Source: Henckelia pumila
Taxonomy: Eukaryota > Streptophyta > Magnoliopsida > Lamiales > Gesneriaceae
DNA length: 64,000 nucleotides
Reading direction: 5' to 3'
NCBI RefSeq assembly: GCF_033568475.1
Contig: NC_133121.1
Location: 7,254,001-7,318,000 of the forward strand
A program made the translations under genes and the position numbers. This document shows, in pieces, positions 1,625 through 61,887 of the stretch. Under the pieces are notes generated by a model. That model did no database searches. It saw only the letters and a program-made list of their open reading frames with translations, and was not told where the DNA came from. Position 1 is the stretch's first letter. The number at the start of each line of letters is the position of its first letter.

Positions 1625-3682
1625 CTAGCGTTTTTTAGTATTATCTTTACCTTTCTTATCAGTAACTCTGCCAGTTGCTCCAACTGTTGCTCGATCCAAC
1701 TTCCTTTCTCTGGCCTCTTGTTTACTGTCCCTTTTGTTCTTAACAATTTTATATAGCTCCTCGGCATCCTTTGTGATGAGATCTAATGGTTGTAAAAATG
1801 CGAAGTTATGTTCAACGTCGTCGTCATTCTCAGCCTGATAAGCAAGCAATGACATTAATCCACATAAAACACGTCCTTCTATGGACCATAAAATAATTCG
1901 AGATGAGTTATGTGACTGCTAACATTAGTAACATTTGCTTCCATTTCCACGAATTGAAGTCCTTTTTGCACAACTTTAACTAAAGATCCAGGTGGAACCA
2001 AATTGCCATCAATCGAGGATTTGTCGAGACCAGACTCAAATCCAAAAGTAAAAGCAGCATGTGTAAATCCTATGAAAAAAAAATCATGCGAAGAAATCAG
2101 CAAAGATGGCATCGAAAGGCAGACATGGGAAAACCACCCTTTGACGCAAATGCATTTGGTCTCATCCCTTACCATAAAAACTCAAATGCTGTCCAACACG
2201 CTTTAATTGCTAGACGTTTAAGGCAAGAAATAATAGGAAGCATCAAATCATTTAACGAATACAGACATAAAAATTTTGAAAAAACTGTAGATAATAAACA
2301 AAAAAGGAAAGGAGCACACATTATCGCCGGGCAGAGTGGATCAACAATTTCTAGGAAAAGGAGCAAGTCAATAGAGTTCTTCTGAGGGTGAAAGTTAAAG
2401 TTTTAGAACCATTACACACAGATTTTTAATCTTTTTCCACTTGGGGAGGAGCAACTGCCACCATCACCCCAGCTGGATCCGCTCCCTGTGACCAGAATAA
2501 TTTGTGTTAACAAAATGAACTCTCTGAGGTAATCTCACATAAGGGGAGCGTTACAAAGCAACATCCTTCTATGTCTCGCATCCGACGAGAACGACGTCGT
2601 ACAGCCAACAGCATCATTAAATTGGATGCCTGGATATTGAATTCAGGCTCTTAAAATATTATACAGTTTTTGTCTTCGTACCACCTTCTTGTTAAAGTGT
2701 GAGATGAAGTGAGCAAAAAACTCATTTTTCATTATCGAATAATACCGGAGTAAAAAGTCTGAAATGGTTAATATACAACTCAAGTAGCAAACTAACCTAA
2801 CTACGTAACGGTAACGTGTAAAAGGTGAAAAAATGTAATAAACAAAACACGCTTCTATAACTAACATAACCAACACTTCTAAGCATCAAGAATCATACCT
2901 CAAAGAACACCTAAAAATTACAGAAGCTTGATGATATGATAATTTCTAAAAATTTCCTCGATCTAACACTCGAAAGTCTAAAGATAACTATAAAAAACCT
3001 GTGAATGCACAAATTTACACAACTAACTTATAAGACCAGAGCGAGGAGACAACCACATCGGAATAAATCCATTCGAAACATAAACAAATATGTTCAAATC
3101 TATTTAAACTTGAGCCACAATAGAAATCTGCCATCCGGAAATTTATTACATATACATATGTGTGTTTTTGTAGTTCTCCGTGACCAATTATACTTTATAG
3201 GTTATAGGCTATAGGTCAAAATGGAGATAAAAAAAGGGTACAAAATTTAAGAATATTTTCTCAGCGAGTGGCTCCCTCTTCTGGTTCCCTCTTCCAAGAC
3301 GAGCAGAAAATACTCCCGATTGACTTCAAAGAGCAACGATTCATTTCGAAAACAAGAAAAAAAAACTACAGCTAAGTCGCAAAATCTTTCACAAGCAGAA
3401 CTAAATCAGTTTAAACAAAAGCATATATTCAAAGAAAACAAGAAACGGCGGGGGAGGAAGGGGTGTTGAAACTAAAACATAAACCATAGATTTTGAAAAT
3501 AGTTCACGTCCCAAGAAGACATAAATTTCAAACCAAACAACCATTAATCGCCTACAAGATAGGGTAAAAACTTATAGATGCATATATACTGAGAAAGAAC
3601 TGAATCCGGAAGACAACACACCTGATTCTTGAAGATAACGGTAAACCAGATAATTCAGCTCAACGGACGTGATTGACTCCAT
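1625..3682 (-). CDS. HOS15/TBL1-like LisH protein, apparently lacking the WD40 domain
   Basis: Three exons can be read on the minus strand: 3682-3622, 2069-1924 and 1834-1625. All have GT/AG borders and matching phases, giving 138 residues. The N-terminus (MESITSVELNYLVYRYLQES) and the next exon (FTHAAFTFGFESG, SSIDGNLVPPGSLVKVVQKG) match the LisH region of plant HOS15 and animal TBL1, and exon 3 continues the family motif (FLQPLDLITKD) into a charged Lys/Arg tail ending at TAG 1627-1625. Family members are WD40 proteins of about 600 residues that act with histone deacetylases in nuclear corepressors; LisH mediates oligomerisation. Here the eight WD40 repeats are not seen. Exon 3 also holds a good donor (AAG|GTAAAG, exon end 1651), so a long intron leading out of the window is the alternative. 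Either a truncated duplicate or a LisH-only small protein is possible. Confidence 0.7.
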
Positions 3683-3789
3683 TGCTTAAGAGAAAAAAGC
3701 TTGAAATCAACGGCTCCAGGACACTTAAATTTGAGAATCCGAACAAACCCGCGACCGATTTTGCGAGTCTCCGCAGAATTGGGGATGAC

Positions 3790-6072: not shown

Positions 6073-7137
6073 TCAATCGATTCTGCTGATTCCAACGCGA
6101 TTGATGGTGGGATTCCTCAGTCTCTCGTTGGCATTGGCTTGTTGCATGCACATCCCCATCTGCTGAACCTGCTGCTGAATCTGCTGTTGAATGTAATGCT
6201 GATGCTGCTGATGCTGATGTTGATGGTGGAAAATTTGGTTTTGATGCTGCTCCAATCCCATCATATAGTTCCTCACCTCTGTTTTTATCATCTCCTGCAT
6301 CACGGCCATCAGTTCCGCGCTGAATGGCGTGAACACCTTGTCCTGCTGCGGCATCTGAACCGCCAACGGAGGAGTGGCCGCCGCAGCGACGGATAAGGGC
6401 TTAGGCGACGCTGCCAAAGAAAGCAGAGGCGTCGGCGTCGGAGGCGGCGGTGGAGTTTGGTTCCTTTTCGGCTCAGTCAAGTCGATCTTGTCACTGGTTG
6501 ACTCAGATGAATCCGACCCCGGAAGAGAGAGGCTAAGACTCGTCGGAGGATCGCCGCCGGCGGATCCCACTTCAAGTTTCCTCGGCGAGACGGCGCCGGG
6601 TCTCGCCACGGGTTTAAACAAATTGGACCCGGACACCACCGGCAAACTGGAGTCGCTGACATCAGAGCAGGACGGGCTGCCGGGGCTGAAGTAAACGGGT
6701 AGGCCCGACCCGTCGCTGACGGATCTCTTCAACGGCGGCTGCTCATGGTGAATCTCGAAATCCGAGAAACTGCTATCACCACCGCCCTCATCGCACTTGC
6801 GCTTGAGGGTGGAGTTCCAGTGATTCTTGATGGCGTTATCGGTCCGACCCGAGAGCAGACGGGCTATGGTGGCCCATTTGTTCCCGAACTTGGCATGAGC
6901 CCGAATGATGATCCGATCCTCCTCCGGGCTGAAAGCCCGATGCTCCACCTGAGGAGAGAGCTGATTACACCACCTGAGGCGGCAGCTCTTCCCCGAACGG
7001 CCGACGATGGATTTGCTGATAAGGGACCAGTTCCGGGGGCCGTGCTTCTGCACCAGATGCTGTAGAAGGTCGTCTTCTTCGGGGCTCCACGGACCCTTGA
7101 TGCGATCCGTATCCGTTTTATGGATATTCGCTGCCAT
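6073..7137 (-). CDS. MYB44-like: R2R3-MYB transcription factor, subgroup 22 (MYB44/70/73/77 type)
   Basis: Single-exon gene of 354 residues. The R2 repeat (about residues 13-62, KGPWSPEEDDLL, GRSGKSCRLRW) and R3 repeat (about 65-112, FSPEEDRIIIRAHAKFGNKW, GRTDNAIKNHWNS) bind DNA. Subgroup 22 markers follow: a YFSPGSPSCSDVSDSS block near residue 155, an LxLxL EAR repression motif (TSLSLSLPG) near residue 200, and a conserved FSAELMAVMQEMIKTEVRNYM-type helix near 271-293. A His/Gln-rich tract precedes the C-terminus. It is nuclear and in Arabidopsis the group modulates ABA, auxin and stress responses, with SP sites phosphorylated by MAP kinases. Lack of introns is normal for the subgroup. It is somewhat longer than the roughly 300-320 residue Arabidopsis members, mainly in the Pro- and Gln-rich linkers. 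The start fits the family N-terminus. Confidence 0.95.
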   Translation of the reverse strand: MAANIHKTDTDRIKGPWSPEEDDLLQHLVQKHGPRNWSLISKSIVGRSGKSCRLRWCNQLSPQVEHRAFSPEEDRIIIRAHAKFGNKWATIARLLSGRTDNAIKNHWNSTLKRKCDEGGGDSSFSDFEIHHEQPPLKRSVSDGSGLPVYFSPGSPSCSDVSDSSLPVVSGSNLFKPVARPGAVSPRKLEVGSAGGDPPTSLSLSLPGSDSSESTSDKIDLTEPKRNQTPPPPPTPTPLLSLAASPKPLSVAAAATPPLAVQMPQQDKVFTPFSAELMAVMQEMIKTEVRNYMMGLEQHQNQIFHHQHQHQQHQHYIQQQIQQQVQQMGMCMQQANANERLRNPTINRVGISRID

Positions 7138-7204
7138 TTTCCCCGAGAAATGGAGAAGGAGAACTAATTCTGAATTTGGATTGGAACGACCAGGAGTGGA
7201 GATA

Positions 7205-20441: not shown

Positions 20442-20446
20442 CATAT

Positions 20447-20975
20447 TGTTACCTCGAGAAAATATTTCAACCCGAGCCCGTTTATAATGGGTCTGCTAGA
20501 TACGACCAGGACTGGTATTTATGGGCCGACCAGGGCTGGGCCTAGTATGCCGTACGCATCTTTTTTATAATTCGAGTGAGACTCTGATACATGTGAGATA
20601 AGTATGGATCTTCTCAAATATTCACAAGATAGAGATAAACTTAAGAAGGGTCCAATGGATGAAGAGTCCTAGTCCAGGATATGTTATAATTCTACTAGGT
20701 AACTTATTCTATTTTCTCCTATAAATACAGGTACTGTTATGGTTGTATTCATTATTCACGCACTCATATCTCTCAGTTTTCGTATTAATCATACCCTCTG
20801 CCTTCAAGACACTGACTTAGACATCGGAGGGGTCACGCCGAAAACACTTTCGGCGCCCCTTGACCTAGTTGTTGCTTGTGCAGAACTTGGTGGTACCCGA
20901 CCCGACCGGCTCCATAAAGAAATTGGAGGATCCATTCTACCAGACCGAACCCGAGGTAAAATTCCGACATCATCA
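20447..20975 (+). repeat. 5' LTR of the Gypsy element
   Basis: Starts TGTTACC and ends ACATCATCA. A TATA box (CCTATAAATACAG, about 20719-20731) marks the likely pol II promoter. Nearly identical to 29710-30237. Confidence 0.95.
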
Positions 20976-20976
20976 A

Positions 20977-20994
20977 TTGGCGCCGTCTGTGGGA
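20977..20994 (+). other. primer-binding site of the Gypsy element
   Basis: TTGGCGCCGTCTGTGGGA lies one base after the 5' LTR. TGGCGCC-type primer sites are usual in plant Tat/Athila/Ogre-type elements. The exact tRNA was not determined. Confidence 0.7.
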
Positions 20995-21015
20995 ATTTGA
21001 AGAAAAAGAGTTTCG

Positions 21016-24000
21016 ATGGCTGATCAGAATGGAAATCATCCTAATTTAGAGTTGTTAATAGCTCAGGCTGTTCAGAGGGCTTTGGCAGAGAGGGATGAGG
21101 AAAATATTCCGCACCCCGATCATAATGCCCACCTCGAGGAGATCAAAAAATTGAAGGAAGAAATGGAGCAGCTCAGGAAGAAGCAGGCCGGGTACCTAGC
21201 TACCACAATCAGAAACATTCCTTTTACTCAGGAGATATTGGACGCTGACCTTCCCAAACAATTTAAATTGCCCCACGTCGGGGAGTACGATGGTAAAGGC
21301 GATCCAGAGGAACATTTAGCACGCTTCGAGAATCCAGCTCTGCTGCATAAATATTCGGATCCGATCAAGTGTAGGGCTTTCCTTACTACTCTCATAGGAC
21401 CAGCCCAGCAATGGTTCAATACGTTACGCGCTGGGGAGATCAAGGAATTCAAAGATTTTAGCAAATCCTTTTTGCATCACTTTGCTAGTAGCAAAAAGCA
21501 TCCTACCACTACTTTCAGTCTCTTTGCAATCAAACAACGGGAACATGAAAATTTGAGGGCATACATTCGAAGGTTTAGTTCCTTGGCTCTCGAGGTACCC
21601 ATGGCTACCCCAGACCTGCTCATCAGCGCATTCATGCAAGGGCTGGATACAAAAGATTTTCTTAAATCTTTAATAAAAAGGCCGCCGGAGACGTATGAGG
21701 AATTACTTGCCCGAGCTGAGAAATATGTCAACATGGAAGAGATTCAGGTCTCGCGAGCAGCTGTTAAGAGGGAGCGACCAAAAAGTCCAAAGGGCAATAG
21801 GGTTCCGAGCAATGGGACAGGAATGGGACAACCATTTCGACCTGCGCTGTTGGGAGAATTCAGCTCTTTCACTCCCTTGCGCATGAGTAAAGTCCGAGCC
21901 CTCCAAATTTGTGATGATCGAAAGCTCACACAAAGGCCTCCATGGACTGAGAAGGGACCTCGGAACAGGGAATCAGATAAATATTGTCACTTTCATAATG
22001 AGTATGGGCATATTACTGAGAACTGTCGTCAATTAGATCAAGAGATTGAAAGAATAATACAACAACATGCTGAATTAAAAAATATATTGACCCGTCAAGA
22101 GGGATATCGCCCGAACAAGAGACAGCAAGAAAGACCGAGGCAAAGAGCCAGGACTGCTCCTCCCCATGAAGATTTCAATCACCCGAATCAGGGCCAGCCC
22201 GACGATGACCGAGCTCATCAAAGACCAGCTCCGCCTGCTAGAGGAATTATAAACATGATTTCTGGAGGCCCTACTGACAGAGATTCCAATCGAGCTAGGA
22301 AAACTAGCAGTAGAAAATTAATAAATATGGAGATTGGGAATCAAATCCTCCATACTGGCCCGACCCTCTCCTTTGGTCCAGAAGATTTGAAAGGGGTTTC
22401 CAGCAACCATAACGATGCGCTGGTAATAAGGGCCACAGTCGCAAACTATGACGTAGCTCGGATATTCGTGGATTCAGGCAGTTCAGTCAATGTTTTATTC
22501 CAAGAAACAATAAATCAAATGGATTTGGGACAGTACAAGATGGAGCCTGTGGTAACATCACTCTTTGGTTTCACGGGTCATGCCATCCGACCTGTTGGAT
22601 TAGTCCACCTACCCTTAACTCTTGGAAAAAACAACACTCGCAAAACCCGAATTGTAAGTTTCATTATAGTGGACGCCCCATCCGCTTATAATGCTATACT
22701 AGGCAGACCTGCCATGACCACTTTCATGGCTGTGGCATCAGCTCTGCATCAGAAAATGAAATTCCCAGTGGGTAATGAGGTTGGGGAGGTGCAAGGTGAT
22801 CAAGTTATTTCGCGCAAGTGTTATGTGGAGGAGGTCAGAATAGAGCAAAAAGTAGTCAGGACTGATAACGTCGATCGACCTGGAATTTCTGGCATGGAAA
22901 AAATCAACTTGATAGAAGACACATCTGTCACCACTGAAGAAGAAACTGGAGAAGTAATAATCTCCCCTCCTTTCGGGGTAGTAAAAATTGCTCGAACCCT
23001 GGAAACAAAGTTGAAGCAAACACTGCTGGAATGCTTGCAAAAAAATAAAGACGTCTTTGCATGGTCAGTTTCAGACCTGGTAGGGGTCCATCGGGAAATA
23101 TCAGAACACAAGCTCAATGTGATAAAAGGTTATCGCCCTATTATTCAAAAAAAAACGACACTTCGGTCCTGAAAAGGATGCAGTAATAAAGGAGCAGGTG
23201 GACGAGTTACTCAAGGCGGGGCACATTGAAGAAATCCACTTCCCGACCTGGTTGTCCAACATAGTCCTAGTTCCAAAGTCTACGGGAAAATGGCGCATGT
23301 GTGTAGATTTTCGAGATTTGAATAAAGCATGCCCTAAAGATTGTTACCCCCTACCTAGAATCGGTCAGCTGGTTGATTCGACTGCAGGGCATGAATTACT
23401 CAGTTTTTTGGATGCTTATCAGGGATATCACCAAATTCCCTTGGCAAAAGAGGACAAAGACAAAGTGAGTTTTGTCACATCAACTGGAACTTATTGCTAT
23501 GTGGTCATGCCATTTGGACTCAAAAATGCCGGGGCAACATATCATAGACTAATGGACAAAGTGTTCGAGCAACAAATTGGGAAAAACATTGAGGTATACG
23601 TTGATGATATCCTGATCAAAACCTGAACTGCAGACCAGTTCATCACCGACCTGGCTCAAACATTCCAGACATTGAGAAATTATCAATTGAAGCTAAACCC
23701 TAGCAAGTGTACTTTTGGAGTCCGGGCTGGTAAATTCCTAGGTTATATACGAGAAGGGGAATTGAGGCAAATCCTGAAAAGGTCCAAGCTATCATTTCTA
23801 TGACCTCGCCCAGAAATGTACAGGAAGTACAAAGGCTGACAGGAAGAATTACCGCATTAGCCCGGTTTATAAGCAGATCTGCAGATAAAAGTTTATCCTT
23901 CTTCAAGGCACTGCGAAATACCAAAAATTTCGAATGGAATGAGGAAAGTGAGAAGGCCTTTCAGGATTTGAAGACCTATTTAAAACAATTGCCCGTGCTG

Positions 24001-26084: not shown

Positions 26085-26275
26085 CAGCTCAGTTCGGGCC
26101 TCATCATGTTATCTATTTTTCACTAAACTGGCACTTAACCAATTATTTATATTTTTGAAGTTTTCTTGTTTACATTAGGATCATTCCTGTCTAGTGTCAA
26201 TTTTATTTTGGAAATATGGCGCTGAAAAGTTTTGGTCTGTTTTTATAAAACAATTTTTTGAGAAACATACCTTGC

Positions 26276-26712
26276 AAAGCCCAGGCAGGTCTGGCACTCA
26301 AAATCCACATCAGTGGTCTCAAAGCCCAGGCAGGTCTGGCACTTAAAATCCACATCAGTGGTCTCAAACCCCAGGCAGGTCTGACACTCAAAATCCACAT
26401 CAGTGGTCTCAAAGCCCAAGCAGGTCTGGCACTTAAAATCCACATCAGTGGTCTCAAAGCCCAGGCATGTCTGGCACTTAAAATCCACATCAGTGGTCTC
26501 AAAGCTTAGGCAGGTCTGGCACATAAAATCCACATCAGTGGTCTCAAAGCCCAGACAGGTCTGGCACTCAAAATCCACATCAGTGGTCTCAAAGCCCAGA
26601 CAGGTCTGGCACTTAAAATCCACATCAATGGTCTCAAAGCCCAGGCAGGTCTGGCACTCAAAATCCACATCAGTGGTCTCAAAGCCCAGGCAGGTCTGGC
26701 ACTTAAAACCCA
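26276..26712. repeat. 45-bp minisatellite inside the Gypsy element, about 10 copies
   Basis: The unit CAGTGGTCTCAAAGCCCAGG...AAAATCCACAT repeats about ten times with a few substitutions between copies. Because 45 is a multiple of three and the unit lacks stops in several frames, long open frames appear on both strands; they are by-products of the period, not proteins. Tandem arrays between pol and the 3' LTR are common in Tat/Ogre-type elements. Confidence 0.95.
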
Positions 26713-26879
26713 TATCAGTATTAGAGCCTAATAGCTGAGCAGGTCCAGCACATCAACTACTTCGGTAGTAAGCAGGTCTAGCATTAAAACAATTTCCATT
26801 AGTACTTAGAACTTAAAAGTTTAAATATGGATCGATCTCAAGGGCTGAATTAAGGTTGAACAAATTCATTATCACCCTG

Positions 26880-27060
26880 CCGTAATTAAGTCAGTTCGGG
26901 CATATATAGGTCGGGACTTCATAAACTTGCATAAGTTTGCTCAGTTATTAAGTCAGTTCGGGCATATATAAGTCGGGACTTTATAAACTTGCATGATAAG
27001 TTTAGTTTCAGTTATTAAAACAGTCCGGGCACACGCAGATCGGGGCCTTAAAACAGTCGG
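26880..27060. repeat. degenerate tandem repeat, about 62-bp period, three copies
   Basis: CAGTTCGGGCATATATAGGTCGGGAC at 26892 recurs at 26954 and, more diverged, near 27022. It is a second, older tandem array in the non-coding part of the Gypsy element. Confidence 0.6.
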
Positions 27061-27239
27061 ACTTGGTAAAATTTCTCGCATTTTTTAAAGAAACCCGAAC
27101 TAAAAATAGAATAAGAAATAAACGTTCATTCATAGCAACAATGTATCAGCCCGACCTGGGCAATAACAAAAATCGATGACCACGCAGGGTATCATTCATA
27201 TCATGTTTTTAGACAATTCAGAGCAGGAAGAAGAAATAA

Positions 27240-38487: not shown

Positions 38488-41400
38488 ATGGACGAGATTA
38501 TCGATTCTGCAAAAAAAGAGGTATTCTCTAGTTGTTACTTTAATGTCTTGTATCATTTCAGTCATGGAGCCCCGAATTGTCTTGCTTTAGTTCAACCATG
38601 GTCGCTCGGTGATTTTTTTACAACGAGATGGGTATTTAGTGGGTTTTTTTATATTCCCTGATTGTTTTAGTTGTTTTCTGTGTATTTTTTTAAAAAATTG
38701 AAAGCAGTTTTCTTTTTTTTGGGTTTTTTTTTTAATGTTGCTAGGTGTTAGTTGAAATGGTGAAATTGGCGCAAAAGAAAGAAATGGCTGGGAGTAAAGG
38801 TCAATGGAAAGATTTTTTGAAAGTTTATGATAAGTATGGGACAAGCTTGAGTGACCCATCACGGAGAAATATTGATTCGTTGAATGCATTTTTGAGAACT
38901 TTTACCGAGTCTGATGACTTGAAGGTAAAGTTAGGATGATTTACTATTCTGTTTTCTTGATAAGAAGAAAGTGCAAGATATTGGTCTGCAAGTTATGAAT
39001 TCGTTATTATCCCAAACTGCATTTTCAGTTCTTCAAGAAAGTACTGCAATGTCATTCCGATCGTGACAAGGTGGAACAATTGAAGAAAACTTCTCCTGAT
39101 GATGAAACTGCTGAGGAGGTTTCAACCTGATATTTTTTTCAAACTCTTTAAGACTTGAATTTTTTGAGTGTGGTCTGCGTTGGCTCCGAGTTTATTTTTA
39201 ATGAAATTGATGTGTGGAAATTCTATTTTACTACCATCTTGTGTGGATTGTTAATTAAGCTGCTTTTGTTACTGCAGAAGCTGGTCCGTTTAACTTTAAT
39301 GCATCCTCAGTACCCCGTCGACTTTTGCTTCCCATCATATGAGGAGGTTTGCTCGTTTAAATTTGGTCTCTTTCTTTTTTCTTGTCTGCTTAGTTTCATC
39401 CTATTGAGTAATTTATATTCTCTTATTGTTAGAGAAACCTTCTCTCTCTAAAGACAGGCACATCAATGTTCTAAACTTCTAAAAAAATAAAATTTTGAAT
39501 TATGCTTCAACCTTGAAGTACATGGTTAAGCACCAGCGTCATGATACTAGATGGACGATGAAACATTTAAAACCATTAAAAAATATGTAGCGTTTTTTTC
39601 TTAATTTTTGTACAGATGCTTTGTGTCAGTATTATGGTTTTTTTCCCTTATGAAGTCTGATATGGTGATCTGGCTTGTCCTTAATTGAATTTCTTTTCGT
39701 GGAACAGGAGTGGGTATCCAGTAAAAAATCCAGGATCATGAAATCGACAAAAATGCTTGGCGTTGACTGTGAGATGGTTCTTTGTGAAGATGGCACTGAA
39801 GCTTTGGTGAAGGTGTGTGCTGTAGACCGTAATTTGCAGGTAAGCTGCAGGGCAAATCATCTGTAAACACCCTTATTGCTTCCTCTGGGAACTTCTATCT
39901 GTTTGAGGTCAACAGCAATGAAGTTTTCGAATTTCAGGTGAAACTTGATGCAGTTGTAAACCCCAACAAAGCAATTGCAGATTTCCGAACTGAGATAACT
40001 GGAATGTCTGCAATTGATTTGGATGGAGTTACTTGTTCTTTGCCAGATGTACAGGTATATTTTACATTTTTAGTTTTCTGAGATACATGCTATCATCATC
40101 ATTATTTTATTATTATTTTGTTTAATTAATATTTTTTTTTGTGGCACAACAGAAATCCATGAAGAAGTTATTGTCACATGGTACCATTTTAGTTGGTCAC
40201 AGTCTCCATAATGATCTTCAAGGTCAGTTGAAAAGCATGACATCAGATTTTTTTTCTAGTTCATGGTTTTGACTTATTTTAAACGCTAGCCACTTCTTAT
40301 GGTTAATTATTGCATAATTTACTTGTTTCCTACCCTTTAGTTTACTCGTGTTTCTTATTCGATGGCCTTTTATATTTTACGTGCAGCATTGAAGGTAGAC
40401 CATGCAAGAGTGATTGACACATCTTATATTTTCAAGGATGCAAATAGACCTACTAGAAAGAAACCGTCTTTGAGCTTGTTGTGTAAGGTTGTTATTTTCT
40501 TAAGAACGTATTTTAAAACCTTTGTACTTTTACTCATCATGAACTTTAAGAGTGATTTCATGTACATTGTGGTTTGGGTCCTGGATGATCTGTCAACCAT
40601 TACCCTCTCGCTCTCTATATATCTCCCCTTGCCTTTAGATTGAGTATGGCACTGGACTTCTTCCTCTTTAAACCCTTGTTGGCTCTGGCCTACAGGAAGA
40701 TGGCTCGATTTTACGATATGGATATATAATATTTCACTCATCATATGCAGCTTTCTATATTGTTGCGTTGCCATATAGAGGCTGATAATGAGCAGTCATG
40801 ATTGGTTTTATGATTCCTATGTTTTATGGTAGGCCAAACTAGGTTATGAGCTTCGGAAACCAGGAAATCCTCATAACTGTCTGGATGATGCATGTGCTGC
40901 AATGAAGCTCGTCTTGGCTAGATTAGAGGGCAGAGTTGATGATCTTATCCCAGAGGAGGTAACGCACGACGTTTTCTGTTATTGTTGACTGAATCAGAAT
41001 ATGTAACCTATTCAATTTCTTATATTAGGTGAAAGAGTTGGATGCAAGAAGAAAGGAAATGGATGCAGGAAGGCTATTTGTGCACAGGATTCCTGTCAAT
41101 GTTCTTGCCAAAGACTTGCAGATAGTTATTCCTGGGAACTTCACCTTTCAAATGAAGGTACTTTTTACTTCATCTTTGGCTTATTTGTTCTTTGAGATAC
41201 TTTAGCACAGCTTTTGCTTAAAATGAGATTGTTTCTTTTTGTAAACAGTTTGTAATAGTTGTACAAAAGAAATAGTGGCCAGAAATTGACTCGATTCTTC
41301 AGTGTCTTGGTTACTTCTTTCTGGGAATCCTCTAATCTCAATTCTCAATGGTGGTCTATTTAAAGTTTGGCCACATGATTTCAAATATATTTTTACATCT

Positions 41401-42625
41401 ATTTCTGAGTAGCCAGGCAGTACTGTGGTTGAGCTCTTACTATTGGCAACCAACACAAAAGAGCTCTCAATTAATTCAATTTGAGTAGGGAAATAAGGTT
41501 TGACTTTTCATCATAATCCTTGGCAGCATATGATTTCCAAGCAGTTAATGACAGGAAGTGCATTTTTTGAGTTCTTTTTTCTTTAGAATTCTTGTTTGCT
41601 ATTTTTTTATCATAATTATTCTCATTATCTTCTGCTTTCTGTGGAAATCATTGTGATTACATGCCTATAATGAAATACCCTTGATAGTAAAATCCTTCTG
41701 GCAGTGAATGCCCGCTGTTGATTTGTTTAAATAGCAGAATTTGAACTTAAATATGTTGTATCGTTTATTGTTTATTATATGATAATATGTTGTATCGTTT
41801 ATTGTTATTGATTTGTGTAAATTGCTGTTAGCATGTGACTGTCGTTTATAACATTTACAAGTCTTTACCAGAGTGTATATACTCGGGCAACATTTTTAGT
41901 TTTACAGTCAAATGACCTCTGATAAATTTGTGTACCCTATGCATTGTGATGGAGCGAACTTCATTCTTATAGTTTGTCAAGGGTTTGCATTGTGGTTGTA
42001 AAGATGAAACAGAAATTTCATGCCTAATTTTCAATGAAAATAATTAGTCCTTGTCTTTCTATAAATGTCTGCAATCATTTCCTTGCACAAATATTAATTG
42101 TTGATTTTATTTTATTTGTTTTTTTAGATAAACAGGAAGAATACATATTCTGCCTTCGCGATATTCAGAAATATGGAAGAGGCAAATGAAGCATTTGAGA
42201 ACCTTGAAGGTGACATAGAGAAGGTATGCAGTTTTTCTATTCGCAACAGCCGTCTTGGTATTTTATTTTTCATGTGATTTGATAATCCAATCCTTTTGCA
42301 GGACTCAAATGGACGGCCGCAAAAGCTCGTTAAATTTAAGCTCGATTCAGGTTTATCTGGCAGTCTCTGTGTTTGTAAAACTTGCCATGATGATTCTGTT
42401 AAACAATTGAAATCAAATAAGAGATCGAATGGAGACGAGGACATTTCAGGGAGTTTAAAGAAGACGAGAACAGACCAACCTTGCGAACCAATTCAGGACA
42501 CCAATCAGTGCCAGGTACATTTAGAAGTGATCCAAAGATTGAAAGAAGAACTAAGTCACAGGGATCAAGAAATTTCAAGTTTGAACAGAATAATCGCTGC
42601 ACTCACTAGGAAACAGGGTCTCTGA
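38488..42625 (+). CDS. SDN3-like: small RNA degrading nuclease (SDN family), 12 exons
   Basis: Exons: 38488-38520, 38745-38924, 39029-39118, 39278-39346, 39708-39839, 39938-40054, 40153-40222, 40387-40487, 40833-40958, 41029-41157, 42128-42223, 42302-42625, all GT/AG with matching phases, giving 488 residues. The DEDDh exonuclease core is complete: D144 and E146 in GVDCEMV, D228 in HSLHNDL, H278 and D283 in HNCLDDA. An RRM-like segment follows ([28 protein letters not shown]) and the C-terminus is a predicted coiled coil ([20 protein letters not shown]). SDN enzymes trim mature microRNAs 3' to 5', even when 2'-O-methylated, and so limit miRNA levels. The start at 38488 aligns with the family N-terminus; no upstream ATG fits. 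The long intron 10 (970 bp) has a short duplicated segment near 41750-41810. The copy looks intact. Confidence 0.93.
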
Positions 42626-47080: not shown

Positions 47081-47345
47081 TGTTGAAAATATATATAAAT
47101 ATATATTATTATTTATTGTTGAATGTTGAAGGTTGAAAGTTGAAAATTGAGTTGTAAAATATTGAAAATTAGTGTGTGATGATGTAATTAATGATGTATT
47201 AATTTTTGACTAATCTCCAATTGAGATCTATAAATAGGTCTCTCCATTTGTGTAGAAAAACACAATTGTGAAGAGAGAAAAATTTTATAAAGTGTAGAAT
47301 TTTGAGTTTTTACTTTTTACCGTAAATTTTTACTTTTTCACAACA
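47081..47345 (+). repeat. 5' LTR of the Copia element
   Basis: Starts TGTTGAAAAT and ends CACAACA. A TATA box (CTATAAATAG, about 47228-47237) marks the promoter. Confidence 0.95.
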
Positions 47346-47362
47346 CGTTATCAGCACGATCG
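47346..47362 (+). other. primer-binding site region of the Copia element
   Basis: CGTTATCAGCACGATCG directly follows the LTR. A TATCA core is shared with the tRNA-iMet primer sites of many plant Copia elements. Confidence 0.6.
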
Positions 47363-47569
47363 CTCGAAGGTTCTCTATATTTTCCGACGCTCCAAAATAC
47401 AAGAAGAAGTCAAAAATATTCAACAAGTAAGAATTTTTATTTTACTGTTTATATATTTTTATTGTGTATATATTAATATATAATATCATGTTATGAAAAA
47501 AATAAGTTTTTTTCAAAACTTGTTATAAATCCTGGGAGGATGTTAAGACGACATCCCACACTCCCGGTA

Positions 47570-48125
47570 AGGGATACGACAAGTATAAAAGCCTCTAAAG
47601 TTTTTAAACAATAACGTGATATATATTTATTATGTATATATATTAACTATATTAATATATAATTTCATGTTATTATATAAAAGGTTGTCTATGACACTGA
47701 CCTTATAATAACGTGATATGATATATATTATTGTGTATTTATATACTAACCATATTTGTATAATATCATGTTATTATATAAAAGGTTGTCTACGACACAG
47801 ATCTTATAATAATGTGATATGATATACTATACCTGACTTTATACTAACTATATTGGTATAATTTCACAACATTATATAAAAGGCTGTCTACGACACCGAT
47901 CTTATAATAATGTGATATGATATACTATACCTGACTTTATACTAACTATATTGGTATAATTTCACAACATTATATAAAAGGCTGTCTACGACACCGATCT
48001 TATAATAATGTGATATGATATACTATACCTGACTTTATACTAACTATATTGGTATAATTTCACAACATTATATAAAAGGCTGTCTACGACACTGACCTTA
48101 TAATAATGTGATATGATATACATAA
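47570..48125 (+). repeat. 98-bp tandem repeats in the Copia leader, about five copies
   Basis: AGGCTGTCTACGACACCGAT begins at 47881 and recurs at 47979 and 48077, an exact 98-bp period, with more diverged units to the left (near 47680 and 47785). The array lies between the primer site and gag, where packaging or translation signals would be expected. Confidence 0.9.
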
Positions 48126-48538
48126 TTATTTAATTATGATTATCATTATATGCATTATATGATTATCACGAATTTTTATTCAACACATACTCAATTTTTT
48201 CTTTACCCCCAACGGTCACAAACGGTAACAAAACGGCTAGTTTTTGCCCTATAAATATGTTCACTCAAACTCATTTTCAATCACACCAAATTCATTCTTT
48301 CTCTCAAAATATTTTATCCTCGGTTTTTTCGAAGATGGAGATGATGACATTTATAAGGATATTTTTCATAACGACTATGATCATCATGCTCACGAGTCTT
48401 TTACTCACCAGCGATTTTCCAACACATATTTTTTCTCTATTTGTATACGCACTTATAATTTACGTTCTTCCATTATTTTGTATTGTCATATTTATGGAAA
48501 TTAACTAATAAAATGCATTGTTATTTTCTAGTACCACC

Positions 48539-49579
48539 ATGTCGAACTTGGCGAAACTCGAATTCATTGCACTTGATATAACCGGAAAGAATTATATGTC
48601 ATGGACCCTCGATGTAGAAATGCATCTCGAGTCATTGGGTCTTAACGAAACTATCAAAGAAAATAACATATCATCCTCACAAGATAAAGCAAAAGCGATG
48701 ATATTTTTACGCAGACATCTTGATGAGGGGTTGAAATGTGAATATTTGACCGAAAAAGACCCAATGATTTTGTGGAAAGGGTTAAAAGAACGTTTTGAGC
48801 ATATACGGGAAGTTATACTTCCGACCGCACGAGATGAATGGAATACTTTAAGATTCCAAGATTTTAAAAAGGTGAGTGATTATAATTCTGCGATGTATCG
48901 AATTGTCTCACAGCTGAAATTTTGTGGGCATAATATTACTGAGATGGAAATGCTTGAAAAGACATTTTCCACATTCCACGCATCAAATATAACTCTACAA
49001 CAGCAATATAGAGTGCGTGAATTTTCAAGATACTCAGAACTCATCGCATGTTTACTCGTGGCGGAAAAGAATAATGAATTGCTCATGAGAAATCATCAGT
49101 CCAGACCTACTGGTTCAACGGCATTTCCTGAAGCAAATGTCGTAAGTAAAAATGAAAACCAAAATCAAAGATATAGACAAGATTTTGGTCGAGGTCGTGG
49201 ACGAGGACGTGGGCGTGGACGTGGGCGTAGAAATGATCGCGGTCGTGGTCGAGGCCGTGGATTTGAAAATAAAAGAGATAGTTATTTCAATAACTCATCT
49301 CAAAGGAACGTCACGAACCACCCACAAAAGAGGCAGCATGATAATACGGGTGAAAATGAAAATCATCCAAAAAGAACTGAGAGTGTTTGTTATAGATGTG
49401 GCACTCCAGGACATTGGTCAAGAACTTGTCGAGCCCCTGAGCATCTGTGTAAGCTCTATAAAGATTCAATAAAGGGGAAAGAAAAAGAGACCAATTTTAC
49501 TGAAAACATTGACCATGCAAGTGGTTCAATGAATTTAGATGCTGCCTACTTTTTGAATGATTTCGAAGATATTGATTAA
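48539..49579 (+). CDS. Copia gag protein
   Basis: Open frame beginning MSNLAKLEFIALDITGKNYM at an ATG in a favourable context (ACCACCATG), giving about 346 residues. It has the UBN2-type gag fold region (WTLDVEMHLESLG, LWKGLKERF), an Arg/Gly-rich stretch (GRGRGRGRGRG) for RNA binding and a CCHC zinc knuckle (CYRCGTPGHWSRTC). It would form the capsid of cytoplasmic virus-like particles. It lies after the tandem-repeat leader and before pol. Confidence 0.9.
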   Translation: MSNLAKLEFIALDITGKNYMSWTLDVEMHLESLGLNETIKENNISSSQDKAKAMIFLRRHLDEGLKCEYLTEKDPMILWKGLKERFEHIREVILPTARDEWNTLRFQDFKKVSDYNSAMYRIVSQLKFCGHNITEMEMLEKTFSTFHASNITLQQQYRVREFSRYSELIACLLVAEKNNELLMRNHQSRPTGSTAFPEANVVSKNENQNQRYRQDFGRGRGRGRGRGRGRRNDRGRGRGRGFENKRDSYFNNSSQRNVTNHPQKRQHDNTGENENHPKRTESVCYRCGTPGHWSRTCRAPEHLCKLYKDSIKGKEKETNFTENIDHASGSMNLDAAYFLNDFEDID

Positions 49580-49739
49580 ATGTACTGGTGGGAAAAGAAT
49601 GTAACAATGTAATTTTTATATTGTAAAACATATTATATCTTGCATGTATTGTTTTATTCTGCAATTAAATTGTAACATATTATAATTTGCATGTATCTTT
49701 CTTAATTCATTTTATTGCATATTGTTTTTGAAGATCATT

Positions 49740-52700
49740 ATGGAAAATGCTATGATCAAAGATGGAAATAATGCACTGAAAGTTTGCATACCAGATAGTG
49801 GTACAACGCACACTATCCTCAGAAATGAAAAATATTTCTTGGAATTAAAACCAACAAAAACAATGGTGAATACAATATCAGGTCCTGTAGACTTGATTGA
49901 AGGATGTGGCAAAGCACAATTTTTGTTACCTAATGGTACAAAATTTTTGATAAATAGTGCTTTATATTCACCACGATCACAAAGAAATTTGTTGAGTTTT
50001 AATGATATATATTCTCATGGTTATGATACGGAAACAATAACCGAAGGAAATGAGAAATATATGTGTCTTACTACATATAAATCAGGAAAGAAATATGTAG
50101 TTGAGAAATTATCAATGCTCCCTACTGGATTGCATTATACACATATAAGTCCAATCGAATCAAATATGGTTATTGGAAATTCTTCAATACTAACAAATTG
50201 GCATGATCGATTGGGACATCCTGGTTCAATAATGATGCGAAGGATTATAGAAAATACAAGTGGTCATCCACTGAAAGACCAGAAGATCTTTCAGAATAAT
50301 AAGTTTCAGTGTAAAGCATGTTCTCTGGGGAAACTTATTATAAGACCATCACCAGCTAAAATCCAAAAGGAATCACCCATATTTCTTGAACGTATTCAAG
50401 GTGATATTTGTGGGCCAATTCATCCACCATGTGGACCATTTCGATACTTTATGGTATTGATCGATGCCTCTAGCAGATGGTCACATGTATGTTTATTGTC
50501 CACTCGGAATGTGGCATTTGCAAAATTGATGGCTCAAATAATAAAATTGCGGAATCAATTTCCCGAATATACGATCAAGAAAATAAGACTTGATAATGCT
50601 GGAGAATTTACTTCCCAGACTTTTAACGACTATTGTATGTCGATGGGAATTACTGTTGAACATCCTGTAGCTCATGTTCATACACAAAATGGATTAGCTG
50701 AATCATTGATTAAACGTCTGCAGTTGATTGCTAGACCAATGATTATGAGAACGAAACTCCCTATTTCTATATGGGGACATGCAATTTTACATGCTGCTGC
50801 ATTGATTCGCATCAGGCCAAGTGCATATCATAAACACTCCCCATTGCAGCTTGTATTTGGCAAAGAACCAGATATTTCTCATTTGAGAATTTTTGGATGT
50901 ATGGTGTATGTGCCTATTGCACCACCTCAAAGAACAAAAATGGGACCTCAAAGAAAAAATGGTATTTATATCGGCTATGATAGTCCATCAATCATTAGAT
51001 ATCTTGAGGCTCAGACAGGCGATGTGTTTACAGCACGGTTTGCTGATTGTCATTTTGATGAAAATAACTTTCCAATGTTAGGGGGAGAAAAGAAACACAT
51101 CGAAAAAGAAATCACATGGTATGTACCATCATTATTACATTTGGATCCTAGAACTAAACAATGTGATAAAGATGTACAGCAAATTGTGCATTTGCAAAGA
51201 ATAGCAAATCAAATGCCAGATGCATTTGCAGACACAAAAGGGGTAACAAAATCATATATACCTGCTGTAAATGCCCCTGCTCGAGTTGAAATTCCAAAGA
51301 AACAAAATGAAGACATTCATGATGTCATAAAACGCCTAAAGCGTGGAAGGTCAATCGGTTCAAAGGATAAAAATCCTCGGAAAAGAAAATACATAGAGAA
51401 AAATGATGATCAGAAAATAGAAAATGGTGTTTCAGAAGAAACACACGATGATGAAAATATTTTGTCAGAACCACAAACTGACGAGAATCATGAAATCTCT
51501 ATCAATTATATTAATACTGGAAAAATATGGAACCGAAAGAATGTACAAGATATTGATGAGATATTTTCGTACAATGTGGCATGTGACATCGTAAATGAAG
51601 ATAATGAACCAAAATCTTTTGGTGAATGCAAAACTCGAAAGGATTGGTCAAAATGGAAAGATGCCATCCAGGTTGAATTAAATTCGCTAAATAAACGTAG
51701 TGTTTTTGGACCTATAGTCCTTACACCTAAAGGTGTTAAACCTGTTGGGTACAAATGGGTTTTTATTCGAAAGAGAAATGAGAAAAATGAAATAGTGAGA
51801 TATAAAGCTCGACTTGTTGCACAAGGTTTTTCTCAAAGACCTGGAATTGATTATGAAGAAACATATTCTCCTGTTATGGATGCAATTACGTTTCGATATT
51901 TGATTAGTTTGGCAGTGTCTGAAAATTTGGAAATGTGTCTTATGGATGTTGTTACAGCTTACTTATACGGATCACTTGATAGTGATATATACATGAAAAT
52001 CCCTGAAGGATTTAAGATGCCTGAAGCACAAAGTTCAAAACCCAGAGAATTTTATTCTGTAAAATTGCAAAGATCATTATATGAGTTAAAGCAATCTGGC
52101 CGAATGTGGTATAATCGGCTAAGTGAGCACTTGATGAAAAAGGGATATGTAAATGATCCAATATGCCCTTGTGTTTTCATCAAAAAAACAACATCCGGAT
52201 GTGTAATTATTGCTGTATATGTTGATGATTTAAACATCATTGGAACGAATAAAGAAATTCAAGAAGTTATGATGTACTTGAAGGAAGAATTTGAAATGAA
52301 AGACCTTGGAAAAACCAAGTATTGTCTTGGTTTACAAATTGAACAAAAAGAATGTGGAATTTTTGTTCACCAGTCTAATTATACAGAGAAGGTCCTTAAA
52401 CGTTTCAATATGGATCAATCAAATCCTTTAAGTACTCCAATGGTTGTCAGATCATTGAATATAGAAAAGGATCCATTTCGTCCATGTGAAGATGATGAAG
52501 TTGTTCTTGGTCCTGAAGTACCATATCTAAGTGTCATTGGTGCCCTTATGTATCTTGCAAATTGCACTAGACCAGACATATCTTTTGCAGTAAATTTATT
52601 GGCAAGATTCAGTTCATGTCCAACGAAGAGGCACTGGAACGGAATTAAACATATATTCCGTTATTTACGTGGAACGACGGATTTGGGACTTTTGTATCCA

Positions 52701-53216
52701 AAAGATACAAATCAGAGAATAATTGGTTATGCTGATGCTGGATACTTATCTGATCCACATAAGGCACGTTCCCAAACCGGATATGTATTTACTCGTGGAG
52801 GCACTGCAATCTCTTGGCGATCACAGAAACAAACACTTGTTACAACTTCATCAAATCATGCCGAGATTATTGCACTACATGAAGCAAGCCGTGAATGTGT
52901 CTGGCTTAAATCAATGACTCGGCATATCCAAACTTCTTGCGGATTATCAGTGGACAAGAATCCAATCACACTGTATGAAGATAATGCCGCATGTGTTGCC
53001 CAAATGAAAGAAGGATACATCAAAAGTGACAGAACTAAACATATTCCTCCTAAATTCTTTGCATACACTCAAGAGCTGGAGAAGAATAAAGATATTGATA
53101 TCTGTTACATTCAATCAAGTGAGAACTCATCCGATCTCTTCACAAAGACACTTCCCACGGCGATATTCAGAAAACACATTTATAATATTGGGATGCGCAA
53201 TCTACGAAATATGTGA
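49740..53216 (+). CDS. Copia pol polyprotein
   Basis: A long open frame of about 1,158 residues carrying, in order, aspartic protease (PDSGTTHTIL), the GAG-pre-integrase zinc domain (WHDRLGHPG ... CKACSLGK), integrase core (GDICGPIHPP, RLDNAGEF), reverse transcriptase (YKARLVAQGFSQRPGIDY, YVDDLNIIG) and RNase H (YADAGYLSDPHKARSQTG, ending TKTLP). Gag and pol are carried as two frames. The order of domains is diagnostic of Copia. It looks whole. Confidence 0.93.
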   Translation: MENAMIKDGNNALKVCIPDSGTTHTILRNEKYFLELKPTKTMVNTISGPVDLIEGCGKAQFLLPNGTKFLINSALYSPRSQRNLLSFNDIYSHGYDTETITEGNEKYMCLTTYKSGKKYVVEKLSMLPTGLHYTHISPIESNMVIGNSSILTNWHDRLGHPGSIMMRRIIENTSGHPLKDQKIFQNNKFQCKACSLGKLIIRPSPAKIQKESPIFLERIQGDICGPIHPPCGPFRYFMVLIDASSRWSHVCLLSTRNVAFAKLMAQIIKLRNQFPEYTIKKIRLDNAGEFTSQTFNDYCMSMGITVEHPVAHVHTQNGLAESLIKRLQLIARPMIMRTKLPISIWGHAILHAAALIRIRPSAYHKHSPLQLVFGKEPDISHLRIFGCMVYVPIAPPQRTKMGPQRKNGIYIGYDSPSIIRYLEAQTGDVFTARFADCHFDENNFPMLGGEKKHIEKEITWYVPSLLHLDPRTKQCDKDVQQIVHLQRIANQMPDAFADTKGVTKSYIPAVNAPARVEIPKKQNEDIHDVIKRLKRGRSIGSKDKNPRKRKYIEKNDDQKIENGVSEETHDDENILSEPQTDENHEISINYINTGKIWNRKNVQDIDEIFSYNVACDIVNEDNEPKSFGECKTRKDWSKWKDAIQVELNSLNKRSVFGPIVLTPKGVKPVGYKWVFIRKRNEKNEIVRYKARLVAQGFSQRPGIDYEETYSPVMDAITFRYLISLAVSENLEMCLMDVVTAYLYGSLDSDIYMKIPEGFKMPEAQSSKPREFYSVKLQRSLYELKQSGRMWYNRLSEHLMKKGYVNDPICPCVFIKKTTSGCVIIAVYVDDLNIIGTNKEIQEVMMYLKEEFEMKDLGKTKYCLGLQIEQKECGIFVHQSNYTEKVLKRFNMDQSNPLSTPMVVRSLNIEKDPFRPCEDDEVVLGPEVPYLSVIGALMYLANCTRPDISFAVNLLARFSSCPTKRHWNGIKHIFRYLRGTTDLGLLYPKDTNQRIIGYADAGYLSDPHKARSQTGYVFTRGGTAISWRSQKQTLVTTSSNHAEIIALHEASRECVWLKSMTRHIQTSCGLSVDKNPITLYEDNAACVAQMKEGYIKSDRTKHIPPKFFAYTQELEKNKDIDICYIQSSENSSDLFTKTLPTAIFRKHIYNIGMRNLRNM

Positions 53217-53381
53217 AGAATCATTCATGTTGACATCAGGGGGAGTTTACGTGGCTGCACTCTTTTTTCCTTACTATGGTTTTTGTCCCAATGGGTTTTT
53301 CCTAGTAAGGTTTTTAACGAGGCAGTATACAACACGTAATGGAGATAGTCATTCTATCATGATCATCATCACAAGGGGGAG

Positions 53382-53654
53382 TGTTGAAAATATATATAAA
53401 TATATATTATTATTTATTGTTGAATGTTGAAGGTTGAAAGTTGAAAATTGAGTTGTAAAATATTGAAAATTAGTGTGTGATGATGTAATTAATGATGTAT
53501 TAATTTTTGACTAATCTCCAATTGAGATCTATAAATAGGTCTCTCCATTTGTGTAGAAAAACACAATTGTGAAGAGAGAAAAATTTTATAAAGTGTAGAA
53601 TTTTGAGTTTTTGAGTTTTTACTTTTTACCGTAAATTTTTACTTTTTCACAACA
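53382..53654 (+). repeat. 3' LTR of the Copia element
   Basis: Preceded by a purine tract (CAAGGGGGAG, about 53372-53381) and followed by the GTTTT target copy. Matches the 5' LTR apart from one short internal duplication. Confidence 0.95.
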
Positions 53655-53659
53655 GTTTT

Positions 53660-54138: not shown

Positions 54139-55625
<1,487 letters not shown>

Positions 55626-55720
55626 GGTTTCTTGGTTTGGGGAAGAAATGTAAAGAGGAGAATTTCAAAAGTTGTGCAAAGGGAAAGTTTGCTTTGGGTT
55701 GAAGAAGCAAACGATGCTTG

Positions 55721-55733: not shown

Positions 55734-55739
55734 CACAGA

Positions 55740-55823: not shown

Positions 55824-55863
<40 letters not shown>

Positions 55864-58447: not shown

Positions 58448-61400
58448 CTAGTTATCCTCAGGCTGTCTCATAATAGTAGCATGCTCGTTCAATACTTTTG
58501 TCGTGTGCTTCTTCTTGCTCCGAGTGCGTTTTCTTCTTGACCCAACTTTGGGCGCTGCGCGCCTTTCAGTGTTCTCTGGGATGCTTTCTTGGATACCAAG
58601 AACTTTTTCTGTAAGAGATGGAAGTTCGGGAGGAGAGTCGGGCCATGGGGTACGTTTAGCTGGGACAGTGATCTCTAATGGAGGATCAATTATCCATCTA
58701 CATTTTCAAACAATAATAATTTCAAGTTGTTTACATGGCCAAACATATACTGATATACATAAGAATCATACAGTTCAAGATCACAATTTGTTGCAAGAAA
58801 TTATAAGACAATTAACAATAACAAAACTAACATGATTCTGTTGATGCCTATTGATTTATCACCCCACAAGCAAACACAATTGCACAATGGACCTCTATAG
58901 CAACTATTCCGTGATCGTCCTTGTTCTACAAAAATGATTAACTCCAGTCGCTATAAGAGTCCATTATATCTTATTATAAACTCTTTTAAACTTGTTGTTC
59001 CAACCCATGTGGGACAAAGGGTGTTATACTAATTCTCAGCAAATATTGAGAATGAGTGGCAAAATTTGTACACATTGAGGATTGACTCCCTGAATAAAGC
59101 TTATTATAAATTTTAACTCGTGACAGCCGTTAAAGAAATCATTTCACACTGCATAATCAGTCTTAAGTATGCAACTGAAAACAAAGCAGTATGATAGACA
59201 ATGGTGCTGTTTTTCCCACGAAGGATAAAAGAAAACATGATGATAATGCAAAAACTACCCAAAGTCAATAAAGCTTATAAAACAGAGGAATAAATGAAAG
59301 AAATCCGTTTGAAAGACTGTTACAGAATGGTAAACAACAAATATAAATATGGTCTTCCATAGTTGATCGAAAGAATGTATTCTATATCAAATTGTTCAGG
59401 TGGCTGCTTTGGTTGGTTTTCCGCTCTACAGGAGTCTCATCTCTCTTTTTGGTCTTAAGTGGTATTCTGCCTTAAAGACCTACCTTTCTTCTTTTGGTGG
59501 CTCCTGGCTGTTGATGTATTTAGCATCTGGTTCATATGTGAGGTGGATTTCAACTGATATAATTGGACCCCTATTTTGAGTCCAAGTCTTGGGGCTTCAG
59601 TTGTTGGAGGTCTATTGGGAACTGTTCCTAAATATCTCACATACCTCGCCTTAGTACCTCTAGTTTTCTTTCTTTTCATAAAGATTTTTCACGATTTTGT
59701 ATCATTCTCTTTGATCAGCAATATATCTTTTCCAGAGGTTTATCTCAGACCCCTTTTCTTAACAATCTTTTAGACATATACGCTGGGTCTGCCTAAATCC
59801 CATCACCAGGCCTTCTTGTATTAAAAAATCCATGTCATTCTTGAAAATAATTAATGTACTTAAAACCTAACATGAATCATCCTAATATTCACCGGACTGT
59901 CACACATGGCATTCATTCTTTATGGGTTCAATTAACGTATACACCTTTGGGTCAGATTTTCATTTTCCACCATCCGATAGTTAACCTTTGTGCCTGAAGC
60001 CTCATAGTTAAGTCCTAGTATTTGCACCAGTCTTCTGTGGAATCAGTACAGCCAAGATGCACATGGAAATTCATAGCACATATGGCCCTAATCACATGAC
60101 TCATTTTTCACGAAAAAAATAACACACACACACAAGCTCCATGCAATAAATGAAACCTGTCCTTCACCGTACCTAATACTTAATGAAAGAATGTAACCAA
60201 TACATGTGTGTGTGTGGGCGCACAAAAGTGGATAGTGATTCTATTTCCTTTTCATAAAGAGGTCTACAACTATCAAAGTTCAGAAACTAGTCAATCGTTC
60301 CACAAGCATTGTGTAATGATCACGACGGAAACTGAAGAACACCCCATACGATAACAAACAATGACACGAGCAGAAGGTAAAGCTGATCACGCCCACTTAA
60401 AAGGGTTGGAGCCATAACGAACAACTATACTATGCACTTCAATATATAGAACAAAAGACTTACCTTGCAGGGAATTTACTATCTGCCCGTGCCTCAACAC
60501 GCAACCACCATAGCATCACTTTACGCCCACAACTCCCAAGGGGCTCCACTATTGACGTATCCTTTAACAAGGATAGTGGACTCTCCAGATCTCCTTCATT
60601 CCGACCAACTTCGTCTAAATCCTTAAACCATTTAGGCTTATCTGCTGTGTCCTCCCACACCAATCTTGCATTTAATATAAACCCAGCCCATTCCAGCTTT
60701 CTTGGTAGCACAAGAGCCCTGTCGCCAATATATCTAGCACTCCTATCTGCAAATTGAGACATATCGAGGGTATGCCACCCAACAAAATGGTTTGAAGAAT
60801 TGCAAGCCGGCCCTTGAACAGGCAATTCGGACATCTTATCATCATCATTCTTAACATCTGGGAATTCTCGTTCCTCAGAACCCCCAGATTGTATAATAAT
60901 CCCAATTGAAACAGAGCCTACCCATTTCACATTCTGAATCTCATCAAATAACTCCATGCCATGCATGTTACTATCATCTGCAAACATGATGATACCATCT
61001 AAGGTCTTCTCTCTTACTACCCTGCACATTTGAACGACGTCAAGTTACAGACTTCCTGCTAATTAATCACTATGATATCCACCTTTTACCAAAAGTAACA
61101 CTCTAAATCAACCAAAATCTAATTGCTTAATCAATCAAAATAAAATCACGGACACTATCAACATGTACCTTAAAGCATGAAGCCTCATCCTCGACTCCAA
61201 CCTATGCCGATCCTCCCACAGAACTGGCATCTTTTCATTAAATCCAATATGAATAGTCTTCAGTCCCGATTTAGAAATCAGCGAGGCGGTCTCATTGGTA
61301 ATGCCACCAGCTTCAACCACGATCCATATGAGATCATAGGGAACATTCATCAAAGAATGCATCACTCCAGTGAGATGAAGTGTCTGAAAAGTTCGAACAT

Positions 61401-61887
61401 AGGTAGGTGTGATCACAATAACTGGCTTAGGCGTTTTGACACCATATAGAGACCTTTGCTCGATCTGAACCCTCTCAATTATCCTGTGTGCCTTCATCAC
61501 CTCGGCCGGATCGGGATGTGGCCACGGCCGAATCAGTATCCCATGCCTCCCAACAACCACCCTACTCCCACCTCCCGTGGAAAAATTCCCCTTAGGCGGC
61601 GACGTGGCCGCGTCGGAGGAGGTAGATAAAGTGTGGAAAGCGGAGAAAGTGGTGGCAGCAGGGGGTAATGGGGACGACGAAGTAGAAAACAAGAGAAAAA
61701 ACAAAAGCCGCGAAAATCGAAAACCCAGCACTAAACTTATCAAACAGCAGAGTCCGTGTAAGACCAGCCAGAAAATAGTCACCGGCGACTTCTTCCCGCC
61801 TTCTACCGCCCCGTCCAACGGCGAAGGCCCGCCACGGAAGCTGTTGCTACGACGGTTCTGCTGCTGCAACGCCGTCAACTGCTTCAT
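58448..61887 (-). CDS. IRX14-like: IRX14-type GT43 glycosyltransferase (xylan synthesis)
   Basis: Three exons on the minus strand, 61887-61169, 61021-60464 and 58697-58448, join in phase to 508 residues. The protein is a type II Golgi membrane protein: a short cytosolic N-terminus (MKQLTALQQQNRRSNSFRG), one membrane segment (VTIFWLVLHGLCCLISLVLG) and a lumenal GT43 domain (VIVITPTYVRTFQTLHLTGV, LIWIVVEAGG, acidic FADDSN motif, GPACNSSNHFVGWH, LLKDTSIVEPLGSCGR). It ends in a basic tail (RRKRTRSKKK). IRX14 works with IRX9 and IRX10 to extend the xylan backbone of secondary walls; its own catalytic activity is debated. I chose the Met at 61887 over one 14 codons upstream because it aligns with the family start. 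Intron 2 is long (1.77 kb). Length fits the family. Confidence 0.93.

Follow-up and report, generated by a model that had tools for sequence, protein, structure and literature searches.

Genes of the window

The window analyzed here is a 64,000 nt stretch of the Henckelia pumila genome (884.66 Mb in 133 contigs), namely, positions C2:7254001-7318000, C2 being contig NC_133121.1. From left to right, it harbors the N-terminal piece of a HOS15/TBL1-like gene (1625..3682, minus strand; positions without a contig name are those of the window), a MYB44-like R2R3-MYB gene (6073..7137, minus strand), an SDN-like (small RNA degrading nuclease) gene (38488..42622, plus strand), a gene for a papain-type cysteine protease (54142..55664, minus strand), and an IRX14-like GT43 glycosyltransferase gene (60460..61887, minus strand). 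An earlier note on this DNA had listed HOS15, MYB, SDN, and IRX14 in this order and had read them as an ancient block that the end of Arabidopsis chromosome 5 also carries. Domain and homology matches corroborated the four families at these places and in this order. The name HOS15-like is true of the family, as attested by a LisH domain and a match to TBL1, but not of the whole gene, of which only exons 1–3 are present. The protease gene, which sits between SDN and IRX14, was absent from the earlier list.

The MYB gene is a single open frame encoding two MYB repeats (Pfam Myb, E 6.9e-38). The SDN-like gene consists of multiple exons, with an inferred start codon. A Pfam scan of its single exons gave nothing, whereas the exon translations, joined by hand, matched RNase_T (E 1.2e-07) as well as Arabidopsis SDN1 (PDB 5z9x, E 1.4e-102), the comparison being with the SDN1 structure entry and not with SDN3. 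Both exons of the IRX14-like gene matched Pfam GT43 (E 3.9e-30 and 3.3e-09), and the first exon of the protease gene matched Inhibitor_I29 (E 3.7e-20) and Peptidase_C1 (E 6.5e-05), its further exons having been recognized by eye. For MYB there were 115 matches among those listed in the same genome, for the SDN-like gene just one other (38% identical), and for the second exon of the IRX14-like gene no other match in the genome. Neither a tRNA nor an Rfam family at the gathering score was found within the window.

Collinearity with Arabidopsis segments

All statements on the flanks refer to a 304-kb stretch comprising the window, 200 kb to its left, and 40 kb to its right. In this stretch 23 non-transposon loci were listed; the other open frames were transposon-like or without assignment. 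Arabidopsis partners were assigned by gene family and locus number, the numbers being those given in the cited papers unless they are marked as our assumption. Nine of the 23 loci, each from a different family, follow one another in strictly descending At5g67 order: a peroxidase (At5g67400; PMC4888286), a subtilase (ARA12, At5g67360; PMC4888286, PMC8392395), NRAMP (NRAMP4, At5g67330; PMC5983769), HOS15 (At5g67320; PMC11371169), MYB (MYB44 or MYBR1, At5g67300; PMC5441854, PMC3927872), SDN (SDN3, At5g67240; PMC10350450), GT43 (IRX14H, At5g67230; PMC3927872), an ERF of the AP2/EREBP class (At5g67190; PMC3485569), and AP2 (TOE3, At5g67180; PMC12311289). Once the families are chosen, the chance of nine loci in strict order is 2/9! 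= 5.5e-6. At the family level, the proposal that this stretch is collinear with the chromosome 5 end was supported, and the collinearity extends past the four genes into both flanks, with the peroxidase, subtilase, and NRAMP genes on the left and the ERF and AP2 genes on the right (the scanned AP2 exon is below the Pfam cut-off). Relative to At5g67180-67400, the nine families have the same order, with the differences that here the protease splits the SDN and GT43 genes and HOS15 is truncated. A literature search for the chromosome 5 loci jointly turned up nothing on their gene order; the one paper listed mentions two of the four locus numbers in a different context.

A GRAS gene and an NPH3-type gene on the left flank also fit the At5g67 order if taken as At5g67411 and At5g67385, respectively; the further numbers that we take for these families are At3g49950 (GRAS) and At4g37590 (NPH3 type). 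Among the open frames of at least 65 amino acids between MYB and SDN, an interval on which no family scan was made, we saw none of the genes that we take to lie in Arabidopsis between At5g67240 and At5g67300 (cyclin D3, an SKIP2-type F-box gene, and EB1).

The same stretch also follows segments of Arabidopsis chromosomes 2 and 4. Five families are arranged strictly in At2g22910-23290 order, with NAGS1 (At2g22910; PMC8392395), the CK2 alpha gene CKA4 (At2g23070; PMC4112627), the PvLEA18-type LEA_6 genes (At2g23110 and At2g23120; PMC2292704), NRAMP3 (At2g23150; PMC5983769), and MYB70 (At2g23290; PMC5441854) as partners of a run common to both genomes, and the ERF-class gene At2g23340 (PMC3485569) fits this order as well. 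On chromosome 4 (At4g36880-37510), a first run comprises RNase III (At4g37510; PMC9162185), KAI2 (At4g37470; PMC3548789), and MYB (MYB73, At4g37260; PMC5441854, which also lists MYB77, At3g50060), and a second run comprises the protease (CP1/RDL1, At4g36880; PMC8708664), GT43, ERF (At4g36900; PMC3485569), and AP2 (At4g36920; PMC12311289). Relative to At4g, these runs have opposite directions, the switch being located between MYB and the protease. The GT43 member of the second run is IRX14, which we take to be At4g36890; likewise, we take NAGS2 to be At4g37670, a further peroxidase to be At4g37520, and CKA1 to be At5g67380. The CK2 alpha gene was put with At2g23070 because its first frame carries an N-terminal extension, as judged by eye.

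Because of the At2g and At4g runs, the tip of chromosome 5 is one of several relatives of the stretch, and the sharing concerns an ancestral segment and is not limited to that tip. At the family level, the synteny claimed in the earlier note stands, but its focus on chromosome 5 is too narrow.

Collinear copies in the same genome

Ten families of the block were searched across the H. pumila genome for further copies. In the region C4:31.19-31.66 Mb, six of the ten are represented (AP2, MYB, GT47, NRAMP, KAI2, and NPH3), with the order fully inverted and the strands of all six flipped. In 5000 random uniform placements of the listed matches, at most four of the six families fell into any 474-kb stretch, a figure to be taken as a guide, since real genes are not distributed uniformly and the six families are those with a partner. 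A smaller copy at C3:49.86-50.06 Mb contains three of the ten families (NPH3, KAI2, and AP2), which agree with C2 in both order and strand. In addition, HOS15 and NRAMP genes lie 39 kb apart at C4:143.3 Mb, and a MYB match is found at C4:142.54 Mb, 755 kb from that pair. A GRAS match (28%) at C4:31.99 Mb is outside the C4:31 block. The numbers of synonymous substitutions per synonymous site (Ks) between the window and the C4:31 block were 1.13 (0.83–1.52) for MYB and 1.24 (0.87–1.92) for NRAMP. Taken together, both the families shared with Arabidopsis and the copies within the genome are collinear.

Origin of the gene order

These observations lead us to conclude, with high confidence, that the window belongs to an ancestral block of eudicot genes, at least 0.28 Mb long (C2:7.067-7.350 Mb), whose order was kept by descent and whose Arabidopsis relatives would be the end of chromosome 5 and the segments on chromosomes 4 and 2. 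The collinearity of the in-genome copies suggests that they arose by an ancient whole-genome duplication followed by different gene losses, and retrotransposons would have entered between the genes later. Several points weigh against this conclusion. Of the 23 listed loci, 14 are outside the nine-locus series, a choice that the value of 2/9! ignores, and the Arabidopsis partners follow from gene family and locus number instead of best hits or trees. The MYB, peroxidase, subtilase, and ERF families are large and in matching at the family level weigh less than HOS15, SDN, GT43, NRAMP, and KAI2. Neither the RNase III match nor the scanned AP2 exon reaches the Pfam cut-off, and the NAGS matches are weak. 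In the C4:31 block, four of the ten families (HOS15, SDN, GT43, and GRAS) have no partner, the AP2, KAI2, and NPH3 matches read through one or two stop codons (introns or decay), and the Ks of GT47 (3.41, 1.69 to infinite) exceeds those of MYB and NRAMP, all intervals being wide. Furthermore, if the CK2 alpha gene corresponds to what we take to be At5g67380, it breaks the At5g order, and by our presumed numbers the peroxidase and NPH3 genes are reversed relative to At4g. For the AGO2-like, ABCF, and GT47 genes, we know of no partner in the Arabidopsis segments.

That the four original matches are a coincidence of large families, ordered by chance, was considered and rejected as next to impossible. 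The MYB family, with its 115 listed matches, is indeed large enough to invite such a coincidence, but the single additional SDN match and the unique GT43 exon are not; moreover, the strict order of nine loci and the recurrence of six anchors on C4 in both order and orientation speak against chance, which the earlier note had called very unlikely. A more serious alternative, which we regard as possible though somewhat short of an even chance, is that the block and the At4g and At2g segments stem from one and the same copy, so that the chromosome 5 tip would be a sister copy rather than the direct counterpart. The KAI2, RNase III, LEA_6, and NAGS genes, the CK2 alpha gene with its N-terminal extension, and the protease-GT43-ERF-AP2 run, all with At4g or At2g partners, argue for such a history. 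However, the genes from MYB through SDN, GT43, and ERF to AP2 are arranged as in At5g67, HOS15 and SDN are not known to us from the At4g or At2g segments but only from the At5g67/At3g50 side, and the same mixture could come from reciprocal gene loss. That eudicots retain a common gene order is well known, and for this reason the finding as a whole is an ordinary one. It illustrates that old gene order persists between retrotransposon insertions in an 885-Mb plant genome, and the block supplies anchors for sorting the duplicated segments of this genome.

A LisH-only HOS15-like gene

The one lead in an otherwise ordinary window is the truncated HOS15-like gene. It comprises exon 1 (3622-3682), exon 2 (1924-2069), and exon 3 (1628-1834, with the stop codon at 1625-1627), all on the minus strand and amounting to 138 codons plus stop; the coordinates were worked out by hand from the splice borders. 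These are of the GT/AG type, and the joined frame is intact. A Pfam scan of the single exons gave nothing, whereas the exon translations joined by hand contain a LisH domain (E 1.2e-10), the only domain found, and match the N-terminal domain of human TBL1 (E 6e-24, 41 of 66 residues identical). The LisH domain at the N-terminus is common to this gene and to the TBL1 and HOS15 corepressors. Arabidopsis HOS15 has eight WD40 repeats (PMC5943563), whereas the gene in the window ends before any of them.

The other HOS15 copy, at C4:143.29 Mb, carries WD40 repeats in its open frames. When ten pieces of this copy were searched against the 304-kb stretch, two N-terminal pieces matched the gene in the window (E 3.8e-21 and 7.1e-08), and the eight pieces taken from its WD40 part, which do not represent every exon, gave a best E of 0.10. 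A WD40 cluster at C2:6.78 Mb, considered as a remnant of HOS15, was judged by eye to be a separate WD40 gene that has a start of its own. The HOS15 gene on C2 probably lost its WD40 half, and a WD40-bearing copy remains on C4, near another NRAMP gene. Over 97 aligned codons, the two copies are 52% identical, with saturation at silent sites (lower bootstrap bound of Ks, 1.60). For the ratio of nonsynonymous to synonymous substitution rates (Ka/Ks), the bootstrap gave an upper bound of 0.228, a value that is suggestive only, because a pairwise ratio is also shaped by selective constraint acting on the C4 copy and because the exons were joined by hand. Of the 48 residues of exon 2, 26 are shared with human TBL1 in the gene of the window and 25 in the C4 copy; therefore, the former has not diverged faster than the latter.

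It is conceivable, but on the sequence evidence unlikely, that the LisH-only gene encodes a live protein kept by selection and is not a dead relic. The predicted product would join HOS15/TBL1-type tetramers and would titrate or tune the HOS15-PWR-HDA9 corepressor in a microProtein-like manner. If functional, it would represent a natural single-domain regulator derived from a corepressor by loss of the WD40 half. The frame would be just as intact, and the gene would look no different, had the WD40 half been deleted recently. In Arabidopsis, the product of the allele oli1-1 is predicted to be cut in the first WD40 repeat (PMC5943563); since oli1-1 is a mutant allele, this suggests that a product cut at the WD40 repeats does not replace HOS15. 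No title among the literature matches listed referred to a LisH-only or truncated HOS15, which does not prove the absence of such a report.

Flanking genes

The left flank begins with a NAGS-like gene (C2:7067218), a name that is tentative because the NCBIfam matches of two of its exons are weak and far below the cut-off; one NAGS exon matched nothing in the PDB. It is followed by the CK2 alpha gene (C2:7111326), the GRAS gene (C2:7122069), the peroxidase gene (C2:7125149), an open reading frame (ORF) without a Pfam match (C2:7140009), and the NPH3 gene (C2:7143125). For an exon of the latter (C2:7144707-7145336), a 99% identical counterpart is found at C4:157439541-157440170, compared with 66% for the second-best match, which looks like recent copying. 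The gene at C2:7152349 had been considered to encode what we presumed to be the At5g67370 product. This assignment was dropped, as Pfam gave RNase III just below the cut-off (26.1 bits, cut-off 27), and the gene was therefore moved to the At4g37510 list.

Further to the right are the subtilase gene (C2:7174773), the LEA_6 gene of the PvLEA18 type (C2:7180270), and two AGO2-like genes (C2:7183827-7188132 and 7191863-7196537) in tandem, with frames nearly alike by look; the name AGO2 is our assumption for both, and the Piwi scan, which covered the first copy only, gave a match there. The KAI2 gene (C2:7200901), a proline-rich ORF taken from the frame list (C2:7213941), and the ABCF (C2:7219834), NRAMP (C2:7225086), and GT47 (C2:7252569) genes complete the left flank. 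To the right of the window are the ERF gene (C2:7337915) and the AP2 gene (C2:7349573), the scanned exon of which contains a partial AP2 domain (E 0.0074, below the Pfam cut-off); its name is based on sequence features that we take to mark AP2.

Retrotransposons and repeats

Two elements with long terminal repeats (LTRs), typed by eye from their open frames and both on the plus strand, jointly account for about 16.4 kb of the 64 kb. The LTRs of the Gypsy-type element (20444..30237; LTRs 20444-20975 and 29707-30237) are 98.5% identical over 532 aligned bases (7 mismatches, 1 gap), and those of the Copia-type element (47081..53654; LTRs 47081-47345 and 53382-53654) differ by one gap and no mismatch. 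Because their LTRs are nearly identical, both elements look recent. The earlier note had placed the transposons mostly between the MYB and SDN genes, which applies to the Gypsy-type element but not to the Copia-type element, located between the SDN and protease genes. The remaining space between MYB and SDN also contains smaller repeats common to the flanks. Both elements contain tandem repeats: about ten 45-base copies in the Gypsy-type element (26275-26719), copies that read on the minus strand as an open frame for a repeated CQTCLGFETTDVDFE peptide, and about five 98-base copies between the 5' LTR and the first frame of the Copia-type element (47658-48121). In addition, an inverted repeat pair of about 390 bases, 70% alike and also matching the flanks, is present at 32913-34276.

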